Shown here: piece after piece, positions 21,864 to 29,811 of the stretch
Layout of the letters: the number at the start of each line of letters is the position of its first letter
Numbering within the stretch: position 1 is the stretch's first letter
NCBI RefSeq assembly: GCF_004295345.1
Contig: NZ_CP036200.1
Coordinates: 4,465,501-4,529,500, forward strand
Length of the DNA stretch: 64,000 bases
Reading direction: 5' to 3'
Source: Shewanella maritima
GTDB lineage: Bacteria > Pseudomonadota > Gammaproteobacteria > Enterobacterales > Shewanellaceae
Program-made: the position numbers and the translations under genes
Notes under the pieces: model-generated
The model's input: only the letters and a program-made list of their open reading frames with translations
Told to the model about the DNA's origin: nothing
The model's database searches: none

Positions 21864-22268
21864 TTACTTTTGAGAACACATGCCTTTCAATACAATATCG
21901 TCATAAGAAACAAAGCCTAAAATCTTACCATTCTCGATAACTGGCGCTTTATTAATGTCAAAGCGCTCAAACAAACGGGCTGTGTATCTTACATCCATTT
22001 CTGCAGGGACAGAGAATACTGGTTTATTCATAATTTCATAGATGTTGGTCCGCTCAGGCGACTTATCAACGGCAAGTACCTTACGGGCAATGTCCGACAG
22101 TAACACCATGCCATATTCGTCGTGATCGTGGCGCTTTTCAACGATTAAGATATTGACTTGATTAGTGGTAGCAACATTAATTGCCTCTGCCACAGTGCGC
22201 ATGCCATCGACATAAGCGAAATTATTATTGAGTACATCTTTGTTAAATACTGGCTTACGAGTATTCAT
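21864..22268 (-). CDS. CBS-pair protein of the DUF1538 operon
   Basis: 134 residues, two CBS motifs and nothing else: first about 15-75 (TVAEAINVATTNQVNILIV then GMVLLSDIARKV), second about 80-130 (VPAEMDVRYTARLFERFDINKAPVI then GKILGFVSYDDIV). CBS pairs usually bind adenine nucleotides and act as sensors of energy state or ionic strength. Its ATG overlaps the stop of the P-II-like gene by four bases, so it is translated with it. In this place it is most simply a regulator of the DUF1538 proteins; that is inference. Confidence 0.85.
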   Translation of the reverse strand: MNTRKPVFNKDVLNNNFAYVDGMRTVAEAINVATTNQVNILIVEKRHDHDEYGMVLLSDIARKVLAVDKSPERTNIYEIMNKPVFSVPAEMDVRYTARLFERFDINKAPVIENGKILGFVSYDDIVLKGMCSQK

Positions 22269-22615
22269 ATTTGGTCCTCTATCTCTTTGCTGAGTTCTTC
22301 TACCTGATGGGCGACGCCGACCGCGTCCTCAACGTCTAGTTGAATAGCAATACCTTTACCTGAATTAGTGTCGAACTCACCAACGGTAGATATGGTTTCA
22401 AGAATATGGCGGCTCATGTGCTCTTCAACGAGAAATAAAATCACATCACGTTGGATGTCTAAGCCCAGACCCATAAAGGTTTTACGTTTCTTGATACCCT
22501 CACCGCGGGCATGATTGATGACAGTAGCGCCGGTCGCTCCAGCTTCTCTCGCGGCATCCATCACTTTATCTGTGCAATCGTCGTCAACGAACGCGACAAT
22601 GAGTTTAAAGCGCAT
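22265..22615 (-). CDS. P-II-like signalling protein of the DUF1538 operon
   Basis: 116 residues. The ferredoxin-like start MRFKLIVAFVDDDCTDKVMD and AAREAGATGATVINHARGEG followed by a loop (GIKKRKTFMGLG, in the place of the P-II T-loop) match P-II-related trimeric signal proteins. It lacks the tyrosine modified in classic GlnB. The C-terminus after about residue 90 is acidic and helical. I start it at the ATG at 22615, which has AAGGAG eight bases upstream and lies inside the end of the DUF1538 gene (11-base overlap); a longer frame from 22669 is not needed. P-II-like proteins commonly gate membrane transporters, and here it sits between a transporter-like pair and a CBS protein. Confidence 0.8.
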   Translation of the reverse strand: MRFKLIVAFVDDDCTDKVMDAAREAGATGATVINHARGEGIKKRKTFMGLGLDIQRDVILFLVEEHMSRHILETISTVGEFDTNSGKGIAIQLDVEDAVGVAHQVEELSKEIEDQI

Positions 22616-23387
22616 CTTGTTGCTCCTTAGCAGACTTGTCTTTATTAATAAATTCGACCAACTGGGCATAGCCCATTACTGTGATCATTGGAAATAAACT
22701 GGCAAATGCGATTAATCCAAAGCCATCAATTAGCGGGTTACGGCCCTCGACATTGGTAGCAAGCCCTAATCCTAAAGCTGCTACAAGTGGTACGGTGACC
22801 GTAGAGGTGGTTACGCCGCCGCTATCATAGGCGAGGGGAATAATCATTTTTGGGGCGAAAAACGTTTGGATTACTACGATGACGTAACCCGCCATAATGT
22901 AGTAATGAATTGGGTCGCCCACCACGATGCGAAAGCAGCCAAGCGAAATTCCCATAGCCACACCAATGGCCACAGAGATCCTAAGTCCCTGAATGCCAAT
23001 GGTTCCACCGGATACTTCATTCGCTTTAATCGCAACCGCAATCAATGAGGGCTCAGCGATTGTGGTACTAAAGCCAATGGCCGCTGCGAAGATATATACC
23101 CACATGTAATCTTGCCAAATATAAGGGCCGCCACTGCCATCAGGGTGTAAAAAACTCGGGCTAGTTAGCTGATCTGCCATCGACTCACCAATAGGGAATA
23201 GCGCCATTTCTAAACCCACCAAGAAGAATGTCAGCCCAAAAATCACATAGATAAACCCGAGAATAACGGTTTTGACATTGGTAATACGGCGCTTTAATAC
23301 CCCAAGCTGAAATCCAAATAAGATAACCGCGATAGGAATAACGTCGCGAGCAGTCAACAGTAAGGTTTCAAATAATTGTTCAATCAT
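22605..23387 (-). CDS. DUF1538 membrane protein B
   Basis: 260 residues with about six or seven transmembrane segments. Family marks are GLTFFLVGLEMALFPIGES (about 50-68), GFSTTIAEPSL (about 103-113) and [23 protein letters not shown] (about 187-209), followed by [20 protein letters not shown]. It is a paralogue of the gene upstream and starts 13 bases after it ends. From memory, a DUF1538 pair from Halomonas was reported as a two-component Na+(Li+,K+)/H+ antiporter (UmpAB); if so, both subunits would be needed. The charged residues in the membrane (Glu in GLEM, Glu in AEPSL, Asp in YDSGG) would be the ion-handling candidates. Confidence 0.85.
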   Translation of the reverse strand: MIEQLFETLLLTARDVIPIAVILFGFQLGVLKRRITNVKTVILGFIYVIFGLTFFLVGLEMALFPIGESMADQLTSPSFLHPDGSGGPYIWQDYMWVYIFAAAIGFSTTIAEPSLIAVAIKANEVSGGTIGIQGLRISVAIGVAMGISLGCFRIVVGDPIHYYIMAGYVIVVIQTFFAPKMIIPLAYDSGGVTTSTVTVPLVAALGLGLATNVEGRNPLIDGFGLIAFASLFPMITVMGYAQLVEFINKDKSAKEQQDAL

Positions 23388-23400
23388 TAGCTGCTCCTTA

Positions 23401-24138
23401 CTAGCTTAAAAAGACCATGCCGTAAATCAGCACGAATATCATTGGACTCAGGCTGGCAAAAGCGATCAAACCAAAACCATCCAACATGGGGTTTCGCCCT
23501 TTAATGACGGTGGCTAAACCGACACCCAGTGCGGTGACCAGAGGCACAGTAATGGTTGAGGTTGTGACGCCGCCAGAGTCATAAGCGATACCAATAATGT
23601 TGGCTGGCGCAAAGCTCGTCAGTACCATTACCAAAATGTAGCCTCCAATAATCAGATAATGGATAGGCCAACCTTTGATAATGCGAATAACACCAAGCAA
23701 AATCGCCAACCCTACAGACAAGGCAACGGTAAACCTAAGCCCCATTGCGTAATCATCCATGGCTTGCTCAGTAGAGCCGATAGCGCCTGATTCTGCGGCA
23801 ACCTCAGCCGCTTCATTGGCAACAGCGGTTAATGCGGGCTCCGCCAGCGTAGTACCAAAGCCTAGCGAGAATGAGAAAATGACTAGCCAGAACAAGCTAC
23901 CTTTTTGTGCAAGTGCATGGGCAAGTGACTCGCCGATAGGGAATAGCCCCATTTCTAAGCCAAATACAAAAAACGTTAAACCGAGTACGATAAATACTAG
24001 GCCAATCAGAATACTACCTAAATGGTCGGGAGCTTGTTGCAGCACAAATACTTCAAAAAAGCCGACAACGAGGATGATAGGAACAAGATCTTTAAAGCTT
24101 GAAAATAATGCGCTGAATAGCTTCATTATTGCGGGCAT
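23401..24138 (-). CDS. DUF1538 membrane protein A
   Basis: 245 residues, first gene of the operon. It carries the same three family stretches as its neighbour: [50 protein letters not shown], then [20 protein letters not shown]. In place of the periplasmic-looking insert of protein B (about 75-95 there), it has an Ala/Glu-rich insert between residues 115 and 135. The start at 24138 has AGGAG about five bases upstream. The 253-bp gap to the plus-strand gene at 24392 must hold its promoter; I could not assign one. Confidence 0.85.
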
Positions 24139-26221: not shown

Positions 26222-26683
26222 TTACGCATTAATCACAAGGTACACGCTTAACAGATCTTTCCAGGTGATAATACCAATTACCTTGTCGTCCTCGACAACA
26301 GGTAAGCTGCCAATCTTGTGCTCCAGCAATACTTCGGTGGCTGTTTTGATACTTGTATTAGGAGATATCGTGATTGGGTTGTGGCTCATCACCTGATGTA
26401 CGCGCTGTTCCAGTGTACGCGTGTCTCTGGCAAACTCCGCCGCTGTACCAATACGCGGACTAAGGGCTGCGAGATAATCACGGTAAGATAATAAGCCTAC
26501 AAGTTTGTTATCTTCTAATACAAGCAAGTGATTAAAGCTAACGTTTTCGAAGATGGTCCGAATGACATGCAGGCGATCATCAAGGTCAACGGTGACAACA
26601 CGCGTTGTCATGATATCTTTTACTAACGCCGAATTGGCACTTTTAGCTGCTAGGGTTGAAATTTGCTCTGCATTTAGGGTCAT
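26222..26683 (-). CDS. CBS-pair protein
   Basis: 153 residues made of two CBS motifs: first about 20-75 (VKDIMTTRVVTVDLDDRLHVIRTIF, LVGLLSYRDYLAAL), second about 95-150 (VHQVMSHNPITISPNTSIKTATEVL, VIGIITWKDLL). Short CBS proteins like this bind adenine nucleotides; its partner is not evident. It lies 97 bases behind olsF on the same strand, so read-through is possible, but there is no overlap. Related to, but clearly different from, the CBS protein of the DUF1538 operon. Confidence 0.88.
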   Translation of the reverse strand: MTLNAEQISTLAAKSANSALVKDIMTTRVVTVDLDDRLHVIRTIFENVSFNHLLVLEDNKLVGLLSYRDYLAALSPRIGTAAEFARDTRTLEQRVHQVMSHNPITISPNTSIKTATEVLLEHKIGSLPVVEDDKVIGIITWKDLLSVYLVINA

Positions 26684-26780: not shown

Positions 26781-28544
26781 TTATTGCGCGGCACCTAGGT
26801 ACTTTTGACGTTTGTTCGGCTTAAGTTGGTTTACATCAACCAAGACTAGACCGTCGATGCAGTCACCAAAATCGGGATCTGTGCCAAAGTCGATAAACTT
26901 AACTCCATCATTGTCACATAGCTCTGCATATTGCTTGAATAGCGTGGGTACTGATACGCCCATATTGGCAAGTGTCCTTTTTAAAATTTTAAAGTTTTCG
27001 CTATAGTTAGCGCCGCAAAAAACTTGCGCTAGTTCTCGCTGTTTTACTTGAGGTAATTGGTAAGGCTTGAATGAGTGAGCTAGCCCTTGAGTATCGGCAA
27101 ATTGACTTTGATAGAAGTAAGTCATTAGCTCTTTAGCGTGTTGAGGGTAGCTTGCACTAAGAGATACAGGTCCAAACAGATAGCGATATTGCGGGTTTTT
27201 AGTTAAAAAAGCGCCTATGCCTAGCCATAAGTATTCTAGTGAGCGACGTCCCCAGTATTTAGGTTGCACAAAGCTTCGGCCAAGCTCTAGTCCTCGCTCG
27301 AAGTATGGCTCAAAGATTGATGAGTACTTAAATAGCGTTTGGCTATAAAGCCCTAAACTCGAATTATCAACGCTACTTTTTGCACATGCAAAGCGGTATG
27401 CACCAACAATTTCTAAGTCGTCTTTATCCCACAAAACCAAGTGCAGATAGTGGCTGTCATATCGGTCGATATCACGCTTTTTGCCCGTTCCTTCACCTAC
27501 AGCGCGAAAGGCGACTTCTCTAAGCCTGCCAATTTCGCGCATTATTGGACTACTCTGTTCGTGGCGATATAAGTAGATTTGCTTGTTATCGGGTGTTTCT
27601 CCTAAATGCTCACATTGCTTAAGTGCGTGCTGAATAGCCTGTTTTGACTCCGGGTGCGCGATGGCTTTTTGGGTATTAAAAATAGGGTCGCGACCTTTAC
27701 CCACACGATAGAGGTGATTTTTAAGTAACTTGACCTGGGTTTTAATTGGAAAGTCTTTTTGGCTGACCACTTCTTTCGCGATAAGCTCACCGATTTTTAC
27801 CGGTAGTGTTTTATTTGTTTGCTTAAACATCTCTTTTACCAATAGCAGGCTGGCTAATGGCTTGTAGATCATCGAAGTGCTGTAAAAGGCCGCTGAGTTC
27901 TTGGCGTTGACATAGATAGGTAGCAGGGGAGCATCACAGCTCTTTGCAATTCGTAAAAATCCAGTATGCCATTTTAAGTCCGTGACACCGTGTGGACGCA
28001 GACGCGATACTTCACCTGCAGGAAAAATTAATACTGCACCTTCATTGTTTAAATGCTGATGAATTTCATTTAGGTGTTGTTTTGGCGTGCCGCCAGTCAT
28101 GTTTCGTACTGGTAATAAAATGGAGTGTAAGGGCTTAATTGCCATGAGCAGTTCATTGGCAACAACCTTAATATCAGGGCGAAATTGGCTGATTAGCTTA
28201 ATTAACACTAACGCATCCATCGACCCTATTGGGTGATTGGCATAGATGACGACTCTGCCTTCTGAAGGGATGTTTTCCACCTCCTTGTCTGGCACGGTAT
28301 AGCTAACATTAAACGTAGCAAGGACTTGCTCAACAAAGTCGACGCCTTGCAAATGAGCAAATTGCTCAGCAAAGGTGTTGCATTGCTCTTCGTGGAGTAA
28401 ATACTTAAGCATGGCTTTGGTTGGTTTTGCTAGCCAAGGTGAAGCTTCGATGCGTGGAAAGCTTTGTTTGACGATTTGCTCTACATTGAGAAGTGCATTG
28501 TTATTGTTGTTTTCTTGCTCGTTATTAAGCAACATGTCGATCAC
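26781..28544 (-). CDS. olsF: OlsF-type bifunctional ornithine-lipid synthase
   Basis: 587 residues, two fused acyltransferases. The N-terminal half (about 60-290) is a PlsC-type O-acyltransferase with NHPIGSMD (His and Asp spaced by five residues, the spacing of this subgroup), and FPAGEVSR. The C-terminal half (about 310-540) is a GNAT-type N-acyltransferase like OlsB (RDIDRYDSHYLHLVLWD, ELGRSFVQPKYWG). This arrangement is that of OlsF, which N-acylates ornithine with a 3-hydroxyacyl group and then O-acylates the lyso-lipid, giving a phosphorus-free membrane lipid. The gene overlaps the end of the plcP-type gene by 20 bases, so the two are translationally coupled. A candidate Pho box precedes the pair. 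Confidence 0.82.
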   Translation of the reverse strand: MIDMLLNNEQENNNNNALLNVEQIVKQSFPRIEASPWLAKPTKAMLKYLLHEEQCNTFAEQFAHLQGVDFVEQVLATFNVSYTVPDKEVENIPSEGRVVIYANHPIGSMDALVLIKLISQFRPDIKVVANELLMAIKPLHSILLPVRNMTGGTPKQHLNEIHQHLNNEGAVLIFPAGEVSRLRPHGVTDLKWHTGFLRIAKSCDAPLLPIYVNAKNSAAFYSTSMIYKPLASLLLVKEMFKQTNKTLPVKIGELIAKEVVSQKDFPIKTQVKLLKNHLYRVGKGRDPIFNTQKAIAHPESKQAIQHALKQCEHLGETPDNKQIYLYRHEQSSPIMREIGRLREVAFRAVGEGTGKKRDIDRYDSHYLHLVLWDKDDLEIVGAYRFACAKSSVDNSSLGLYSQTLFKYSSIFEPYFERGLELGRSFVQPKYWGRRSLEYLWLGIGAFLTKNPQYRYLFGPVSLSASYPQHAKELMTYFYQSQFADTQGLAHSFKPYQLPQVKQRELAQVFCGANYSENFKILKRTLANMGVSVPTLFKQYAELCDNDGVKFIDFGTDPDFGDCIDGLVLVDVNQLKPNKRQKYLGAAQ

Positions 28545-29511
28545 CTTGTTGTGGCTTAGTTGGTTCTATTTCATTAGATTGTGAGATTGAAAACATTATG
28601 CTGCTTAACGGTTTAAGCCCTGAGAGCTTCTCTTCCCATTTGAGTAAATGGAAATCTCCGCTAGGGCATTCAGCTATAACAGTGCAGTTCTCAACCCAGT
28701 CGCCGTCGTTGGCGTAGATGATGGCGCGGTCATTAATTAAATTGTGTGAAAGTTCAGGCTGATGAATGTGGCCACACACCACAAGATCAGCGCCTTGTTT
28801 ACGTCCATAAGCCAAAGCTGCCGTCTTGAACTGATTGATTGCAGCTTGTGCTTTTGAGACGCGCTGTTTGACATAGCCAGCTAATGACCAATAGGAATAA
28901 CCAAACAAGCTTCTTGCCTTGTGTAGGCCACGGTTAAGCCACAACAACACGTCATATAAACGGTCACCAAGCTTGGCATAGAAAGGGTGAATTCCGACCT
29001 CGGAATCGAATTGGTCGCCATGGATCAGCAGGCAACGTTTACCTTGCTTAGACACATGCATGTGCTCTTGTTTAATCGTGATGCCTCTAAAGTAACTGTC
29101 AGAGTATGCTTTAAAAGCTTCATCATGGTTGCCCGGTATGTAGAACACTTGCGTGTCAGTATCTGCAGCAATCTGCATGATTTTTTGTAGTACACGCTGG
29201 TGCGGTTCAGGCCAATATACACGGCGCTTTAATGCCCAAATATCAACAATATCGCCGACTAAATAAAGGTAATCACACTGAGCTTGTTCAAGCAGCTGCA
29301 ATAAGAACTCGGCCTTACAATCTGGTGTACCTAAATGAACGTCAGATATCCAAAGCGCATGATATTGATTAGACTTGCAAGAATTCTTTGACTGAGTAGA
29401 TGAGGGCAGGTGAGAGACGCTCGTTTGCTCTCTCTGTGAAATGCTGTTGGGTTGTGAAATGCTTTGGTGGTGAGAATTGTGCTGACGCTTGACTTGATTC
29501 ATGCTGTGCAT
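28525..29511 (-). CDS. plcP: PlcP-type phospholipase C (calcineurin-like metallophosphoesterase)
   Basis: 328 residues. A Ser/Gln-rich N-terminal stretch of about 45 residues precedes a metallophosphoesterase domain with all metal-binding blocks: ISDVHLG, VGDIVD, PGNHDE, IHGDQFD and VCGHIHQPE, then ANDGDWVENCT. General annotation would be LpxH-like UDP-diacylglucosamine diphosphatase, but the sequence between the blocks (LKRRVYWPEPH, YWSLAGYVKQRV, GDWVENCT) follows the PlcP proteins of Sinorhizobium and marine bacteria, which cut phospholipids to diacylglycerol under phosphate starvation. I start it at the ATG at 29511: the longer TTG frame (29556) would begin upstream of the predicted promoter element. 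It overlaps olsF. Confidence 0.7.
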   Translation of the reverse strand: MHSMNQVKRQHNSHHQSISQPNSISQREQTSVSHLPSSTQSKNSCKSNQYHALWISDVHLGTPDCKAEFLLQLLEQAQCDYLYLVGDIVDIWALKRRVYWPEPHQRVLQKIMQIAADTDTQVFYIPGNHDEAFKAYSDSYFRGITIKQEHMHVSKQGKRCLLIHGDQFDSEVGIHPFYAKLGDRLYDVLLWLNRGLHKARSLFGYSYWSLAGYVKQRVSKAQAAINQFKTAALAYGRKQGADLVVCGHIHQPELSHNLINDRAIIYANDGDWVENCTVIAECPSGDFHLLKWEEKLSGLKPLSSIMFSISQSNEIEPTKPQQGDRHVA

Positions 29512-29542
29512 AGCCAATCCATTCTGTGGCAAAGTTTCACCA

Positions 29543-29576
29543 AGAATAAAAAGCAAAATTGACAGCTACATGAAAC
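29543..29576 (-). promoter_or_regulatory. Candidate Pho box and -10 of the plcP-olsF operon
   Basis: On the minus strand GTTTCAT-GTAG-CTGTCAA (29576-29559) matches the PhoB repeat pair CTGTCAT-N4-CTGTCAT at 11 of 14 positions with the right spacing. A -10-like TATTCT (29548-29543) follows about 10 bases after the second repeat, where PhoB-dependent promoters have it. Transcription would begin about 25 bases before the plcP ATG. The spacer is less A/T-rich than usual. Spotted by eye. Confidence 0.5.
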
Positions 29577-29606
29577 CCTTGTGGCATTTTTATTAAACTG
29601 TAGATT

Positions 29607-29782
29607 ATACCAATTAGCACAAAAACGTGAGCATTATTACTGGTTACATCTTATTGATAAAAAAGGCTTATAACTTCGTTAGAAATTTTGTAGGTAGAGC
29701 AACTAGCTAGCTTCAATTTCCGCCTTGTTCTAAGCGATTTTTCCTGCGTAATCTCTGACCACTTATTTATCCCAATTGGTAT
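29607..29782. repeat. Short intergenic repeat with ATACCAATT ends (MITE-like)
   Basis: A 176-bp non-coding block flanked by inverted ends ATACCAATT (29607-29615) and AATTGGTAT (29774-29782). The interior, with a stretch reading on the minus strand GTGGTCAGAGATTACGCAGG, resembles a family of intergenic repeats I recall from Shewanella and Vibrio genomes. Only one copy is in this window, so the call rests on the ends and on memory. Confidence 0.5.
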
Positions 29783-29784
29783 TA

Positions 29785-29811
29785 TAAAAAAGGAGACCCT
29801 GAGGTCTCCTT
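29785..29811 (-). terminator. Rho-independent terminator of leucine dehydrogenase
   Basis: A perfect 9-bp stem (29790-29798 with 29803-29811) with a four-base loop, then a T run on the minus strand. It lies about 35 bases behind the ldh stop. Confidence 0.88.

Follow-up and report, generated by a model that had tools for sequence, protein, structure and literature searches.

A plcP–olsF gene pair behind a tandem Pho-box array in Shewanella maritima: a predicted operon for swapping phospholipid for ornithine lipid

The window, a 64,000-nucleotide stretch of the Shewanella maritima genome (a single contig of 4.72 Mb), carries two adjacent genes predicted to encode a phospholipase C of the PlcP type and a bifunctional ornithine lipid synthase, OlsF, behind a candidate PhoB-dependent promoter (Table 1). 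A preliminary description, made from the letters of the window alone, had read the pair as a phosphate-stress operon for lipid remodelling. Both open reading frames (ORFs) lie on the minus strand where it had placed them and share 20 bases: the phosphoesterase ORF (28525-29556) encodes 343 aa when counted from a TTG and the olsF ORF (26781-28544) encodes 587 aa when counted from a GTG. The TTG falls within the promoter, and the plcP start is likely to be ATG 29502 or ATG 29511 rather than this codon; the first of these gives a protein of 325 aa, the length of its nearest relative, a Shewanella sp. WXL01 protein with 98% identity. The first ATG of olsF reduces the overlap with plcP to 11 bases.

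Table 1. Predicted genes and sequence features at the plcP–olsF locus, in window coordinates
Feature	Position	Strand	Remarks
Tandem Pho-box array of four half-sites resembling TGTCA, at 11-bp spacing (GTTTAATAAAA ATGCCACAAGG GTTTCATGTAG CTGTCAATTTT)	29555-29598	minus	16/20 matches
-10-like hexamer TATTCT	29543-29548	minus	same spacing as in relatives (TAnnCT)
plcP (predicted phospholipase C, calcineurin-like phosphoesterase superfamily)	28525-29502	minus	ORF extends to 29556; likely start ATG 29502 or 29511
olsF (predicted bifunctional ornithine lipid synthase)	26781-28535	minus	ORF to GTG 28544; likely start ATG 28535
Terminator-like hairpin	29790-29811	minus	3' of upstream ELFV-type dehydrogenase gene; 9-pair stem and T tail; consensus match only

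PlcP removes the head groups of phospholipids, leaving diacylglycerol. The phosphoesterase of the window matches PF00149 and PF12850 and features the calcineurin-like motifs D.H, GD, GNHD, HGD and GH.H, which we take to be metal binders, aligned with those of LpxH. Two LpxH models score it at 54.5 and 51.9 bits, below their respective cut-offs of 134 and 190.35, and a separate LpxH is encoded elsewhere in the genome (C1:3979965-3980666, 296.5 bits against the cut-off of 134). When 70 PlcP-type and 24 LpxH rows are aligned (one LpxH, L274, was left out), the window protein and all 70 PlcP-type rows have GNHD, whereas all 24 LpxH rows have GNRD. Mean identity of the window protein is 42% to 60 PlcP-type rows (ten ‘SHE’ rows excluded) and 21% to the LpxH rows; it is 40% identical to a PlcP-type protein of Pseudomonas aeruginosa and 21% identical to the LpxH of its own genome. 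A tree was the check on which the preliminary description had staked its PlcP assignment, and the maximum-likelihood tree, thinned to 52 of the 94 rows and without plcPs apart from olsF, splits 38 PlcP-type from 14 LpxH rows with support of 100/100 and puts the phosphoesterase away from LpxH. Judged from its sequence, the phosphoesterase falls on the PlcP side rather than on that of LpxH.

The PlcP side of this tree takes in proteins encoded beside agt, the gene for the glycosyltransferase Agt, as well as the P. aeruginosa protein P0125. In a coarser earlier tree with 12 LpxH rows, plcPs apart from olsF mostly intermingle with adjacent ones. For a FastTree tree of the 94-row alignment, the support after rerooting, 0.388, was judged unusable. 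P0125, presumably PA3219, is 89% identical to the PlcP of locus L202, in which plcP is followed by a family-4 glycosyltransferase gene. The same order has been described for P. aeruginosa PA3219-PA3218 (PMC8528852; here and below, papers are cited for the parts of them that were covered). LpxH scores over its cut-off in 25 of 30 plcP-bearing genomes checked. Among the best 120 relatives of each search, those with source names are mostly called LpxH or UDP-2,3-diacylglucosamine diphosphatase, which we take to be misnaming; as plcP is often named LpxH, surveys can miss it.

The second gene is, by its sequence, an olsF encoding a predicted ornithine lipid synthase, an enzyme that assembles its product from ornithine and two chains, one 3-hydroxyacyl and one acyl. 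The curated NCBIfam equivalog NF052615 (bifunctional ornithine lipid synthase) scores the protein at 870.5 bits against a cut-off of 620 over profile positions 1-569 of 570, which bears out the earlier OlsF-type assignment, while OlsB models stay under their cut-offs. The two halves correspond to an O-acyltransferase (PF19576) and an N-acyltransferase (PF13444); according to a review (PMC11631085), the N-terminal part of OlsF is typically PF19576.

The spread of this gene order was determined in 152 Shewanellaceae genomes, the window genome included, with a plcP threshold of E<=1e-30. OlsF is over its cut-off in 92 of these and plcP is present in 86. In 75 genomes olsF comes straight after plcP, with both genes on one strand; the remainder comprises 7 genomes with both genes apart, 10 with olsF only and 4 with plcP only. 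Of 74 loci, 41 have an olsF frame that overlaps the stop of plcP, and the first olsF ATG of relatives often lies past that stop, so the 20-base overlap is unsupported as a conserved coupling. In an order sample of 397 genomes, OlsF is over its cut-off in 180 and plcP is present in 88, 64 of them outside the family. The pair occurs in 28 of these 64 (family codes f5, 17 genomes; f14, 5; f6, 4; f17, 2). Among the other 36, the two genes are apart in 28 (27 plus G197, whose olsF is on another contig than plcP), five have an OlsF lacking a coordinate among the matches listed (G239, G313, G409, G432 and G439), and three plcP-bearing genomes (G163, G199 and G340) have no OlsF match listed at E<=1e-100.

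A set of named loci, the best 80 of at least 567 relatives with an Alteromonadaceae-like query first, has plcP immediately upstream of olsF in 16 cases, from Alteromonas, Aestuariibacter, Paraglaciecola, Glaciecola, an uncultured Thalassotalea, Rheinheimera, Shewanella and their kin. Under a looser rule, which counts an olsF at any place in the flanks (4 kb at most, in some cases shortened by contig ends), 22 of the 80 have olsF nearby, 37 have agt (two of these calls being weak 30% matches), 21 have neither and none has both. Among the 22 are loci with the gene order reversed, with olsF on the other strand or with olsF at a distance, from Psychrosphaera, two Halieaceae metagenome-assembled genomes (MAGs), a Kangiellaceae MAG, Aliikangiella and a Glaciecola MAG, and all five Pseudoalteromonas loci in the set have neither partner. 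In three loci (L310, L351 and L357; Psychrosphaera haliotis and the two Halieaceae MAGs) olsF lies directly upstream of plcP, which suggests that the pairing arose or was rearranged more than once. The plcP–olsF order is old and common, and the arrangement is not special to the window genome, occurring in roughly half the Shewanellaceae genomes sampled as well as in several related families.

Upstream of plcP, the preliminary description had placed a Pho box at 29559-29576. Its score of 11 out of 14 stands, but not its sufficiency: eight sites on the two strands of the window reach 11 or 12 out of 14, this box among them, and with seven others matching equally well or better the two-half-site box was rejected as evidence on its own. 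It is, however, the downstream half of the four-half-site array of Table 1, the sole place in the window with at least 15 of 20 matches to four TGTCA half-sites. A held-out matrix, built without the window genome from 24 clusters of sites scoring at least 14 in 60 relatives, ranks the array first in the window at 30.9 bits, followed by sites at 11.0 and -0.6 bits. TA..CT columns that mark a -10 are prominent in this matrix although the sites were picked on their half-sites alone; the well-placed -10 noted earlier is upheld as the TATTCT hexamer. A scan with the sigma-70 consensus gave no usable signal, with 8 matches against 7.2 expected. PhoB is encoded in the genome (371 bits against a cut-off of 296.2), and we regard the array as a candidate PhoB-bound promoter of the Pho regulon.

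The array is kept in related genomes, a point that had been singled out for checking, and in a stronger tandem form than the box first described. The 300 bp that precede the PlcP motif were scanned in all but one of the 75 adjacent family loci (G067 was left out because the motif pattern failed). Of these 74 loci, 73 have an array score of at least 12, the window locus included, and G070 scores 10. The mean best four-half-site score is 15.27 out of 20 at a period of 11, compared with 10.8-11.4 at periods 7-10 and 12-17 and with 10.85 ± 0.09 in 30 shuffles. For adjacent loci of other families, 20 of the 28 were scanned, the other eight being left out, and the array is again present (mean 15.3 versus 10.9-11.9 at other periods; two loci score 10 and 12). 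Its mean is 14.75 in 20 loci with plcP not beside olsF, and a weaker 13.05, versus 10.6-11.3, in 19 phylum-wide plcP loci; a further row, L201, was left out of the analysis. In family genomes whose olsF has no plcP next to it, olsF carries the array in its own upstream region (15 of 17 such genomes, G001 and G008 being left out; 15.13 versus 10.7-11.7, lowest score 12).

Taken together, we consider it very probable that the pair is a PhoB-driven phosphate-starvation operon that swaps phospholipid for ornithine lipid. With phosphate short, PhoB would bind the tandem Pho boxes and a single transcript would be made. PlcP would then strip phosphate-bearing head groups from membrane phospholipids, yielding diacylglycerol and freed phosphorus, and OlsF would supply ornithine lipid as a phosphorus-free refill of the membrane. 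The diacylglycerol would go back via diacylglycerol kinase, for which the genome has one prokaryotic gene (dgkA), or to other uses; recycling to phosphatidic acid by DgkA would rebuild phospholipid, and lipases or another acceptor may matter. In one locus (L203:1513-2448, genome G605), a gene for a patatin-like phospholipase lies directly downstream of plcP, a possible outlet for diacylglycerol.

Several points weigh against this interpretation. The substrate of the window PlcP is assigned from the tree and from 40% identity. The array averages are taken over related genomes, which are non-independent, and are not probabilities. The same matrix gives a weak 6.0 bits upstream of phoB and 2.8 bits around dgkA, where the scan of this genome found no such array, so that no other Pho gene of the genome provides a positive control. 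The two enzymes can work apart, as 10 of the 92 OlsF genomes lack plcP at E<=1e-30 and 7 have it elsewhere. Finally, no experiment on the plcP–olsF pair was found in the literature searched.

Agt was sought in the genomes that carry the pair. The window genome has no match at E<=0.001 to a Pseudomonas-type Agt query, and with the Agt of locus L208 as the query nothing above 75.5 bits was found in any of 73 plcP–olsF genomes (45 of the 75 family pair genomes and all 28 outside the family). Eleven of the 73 have weak matches of 42-76 bits and 30-39% identity, mostly of partial length, while all seven known plcP–agt genomes used as controls, one of them the query's own, reach at least 332 bits. 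An Agt homolog adjoins plcP in 11 of 19 phylum-wide plcP loci picked. L208 (genome G655) contains a plcP-agt-dgkA-olsF cluster, so OlsF and Agt partners are not strictly exclusive, and L331 (Polynucleobacter) contains a plcP-agt-dgkA-olsB-like cluster. The earlier wording, that OlsF takes the place of Agt, holds in that Agt was not found, but Agt as the sole contrast was too narrow, since btaAB and other glycosyltransferases are also known beside plcP. The six plcP contexts in the covered part of PMC4796936 take in btaAB, agt, other glycosyltransferases or no operon, and olsF is not named there.

These contexts also bear on a second account of the locus, in which the pair is co-regulated but diacylglycerol goes mainly to another phosphorus-free lipid through an unrelated enzyme, such as a glycosyltransferase or the betaine-lipid enzymes, with ornithine lipid made in parallel. 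In other marine bacteria plcP has btaAB or different glycosyltransferases as neighbours (PMC4796936), and some methanotrophs have another putative diacylglycerol glycosyltransferase (PMC9239053), both of which would fit this account, but the genes flanking the pair encode a CBS protein and a dehydrogenase, and Agt was not found in a search that covered Agt and not BtaA/B or other diacylglycerol glycosyltransferases; we regard this account as unlikely. It is still less probable that the OlsF of this clade uses an amino acid other than ornithine for its aminolipid. Related synthases do take other amino acids, and the two halves of the protein give hits to the glycine-lipid models GlsB and GlsA, but both models stay below their cut-offs (194.6 of 300 and 172.9 of 260 bits) while the OlsF model is well exceeded, and both OlsF homologs of Vibrio cholerae cause ornithine lipid synthesis in Escherichia coli (PMC12186959). 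That the phosphoesterase is a second LpxH, the pair then concerning lipid A and the outer membrane, can be set aside as highly improbable in view of the sub-cut-off scores, the GNHD motif, the separate LpxH here and in most of the plcP-bearing genomes checked and the tree split, even though public names favour it, all seven solved structures matched by sequence are LpxH-type hydrolases, and the protein may have a double role in the 5 of 30 genomes without an LpxH over the cut-off.

Within a predicted operon that swaps phospholipid for ornithine lipid, OlsF makes no use of diacylglycerol, and the logic is thus unlike that of PlcP-Agt, where Agt takes the product of PlcP. Ornithine lipid costs nitrogen, not sugar, and diacylglycerol would be left without evident use. 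Whether PlcP-OlsF is a distinct type of remodelling, with ornithine lipid alone replacing phospholipid and diacylglycerol recycled or degraded, is a more tentative proposal to which we give slightly less than an even chance; it would apply to many Shewanella, Alteromonas, Glaciecola, Paraglaciecola, Rheinheimera and their kin, mostly as an alternative to PlcP-Agt, with L208 as an exception. No report of a plcP–olsF operon was found in a literature search that covered few subscription papers and not Supplementary Table S2 of PMC4796936, which concerns lipid genes within 5 kb of plcP; our best reading is that the pairing is a variant of PlcP lipid remodelling that is new within the literature covered. 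PlcP has served as a marine phosphorus-stress marker (PMC4796936), and presence of its gene is read as glycolipid or betaine-lipid making, whereas its partner gene in several genera of marine Gammaproteobacteria indicates ornithine lipid instead. With one putative promoter, two predicted enzymes and no Agt found, the pair should offer a clean testable case.

The surroundings of the pair add a few observations. The terminator-like hairpin on its upstream side would set the dehydrogenase gene apart from plcP–olsF; the region has 5 such hairpins against 3.2 in shuffles. Between the hairpin and the Pho array lies an element of about 180 bp (29604-29785) with 26-nt imperfect terminal inverted repeats (77%), which looks like a miniature inverted-repeat transposable element. 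The genome has a second copy, 84% identical, just 5' of dgkA (L287:1214-1375); that both copies adjoin lipid genes may be chance, in a comparison that covered fetched loci only. On the other side, a gene for a two-CBS-domain protein (26222-26683) begins 97 bp past olsF on the same strand. Further along, 21864-24138 encodes two DUF1538 membrane proteins, a family with no known function according to Pfam, then a P-II-like protein and a CBS protein, all on the same strand.

Among known systems, the closest in outline is PlcP-Agt lipid renovation in SAR11, Erythrobacter, P. aeruginosa and Methylosinus (PMC4796936, PMC8528852, PMC9239053), which shares a PlcP homolog, an upstream Pho box and a phosphorus-free replacement lipid with the window locus. 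It differs in the partner, OlsF here, and in a replacement lipid that would not be built on the diacylglycerol released by PlcP, in a genome in which Agt was not found. OlsF under phosphate control is known from V. cholerae, where VC0489 is PhoB-dependent and cells that lose it grow more slowly when phosphate is low (PMC12186959); the window locus resembles it in its predicted OlsF and Pho array, both read from sequence here, but its olsF is the second gene of a putative operon that begins with plcP. Family code f16, presumably Vibrionaceae, does not occur among the 88 plcP-matching genomes of the order sample, and in Photobacterium halotolerans plcP is present with neither olsF nor agt near. 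Phospholipid removal and ornithine lipid synthesis are combined, as is predicted for the window, in the PhoBR regulon of Pseudomonas putida BIRD-1, where a phoBR mutant lacks PlcP and OlsAB at low phosphate (PMC5082522); in that strain the locus tags of plcP and olsAB are far apart and the two-gene OlsBA route is used, unlike the single pair with a bifunctional OlsF. The L208 and L331 clusters likewise have plcP next to an ornithine-lipid-type gene but, unlike the window pair, also hold agt and dgkA, combining the glycolipid and aminolipid branches.

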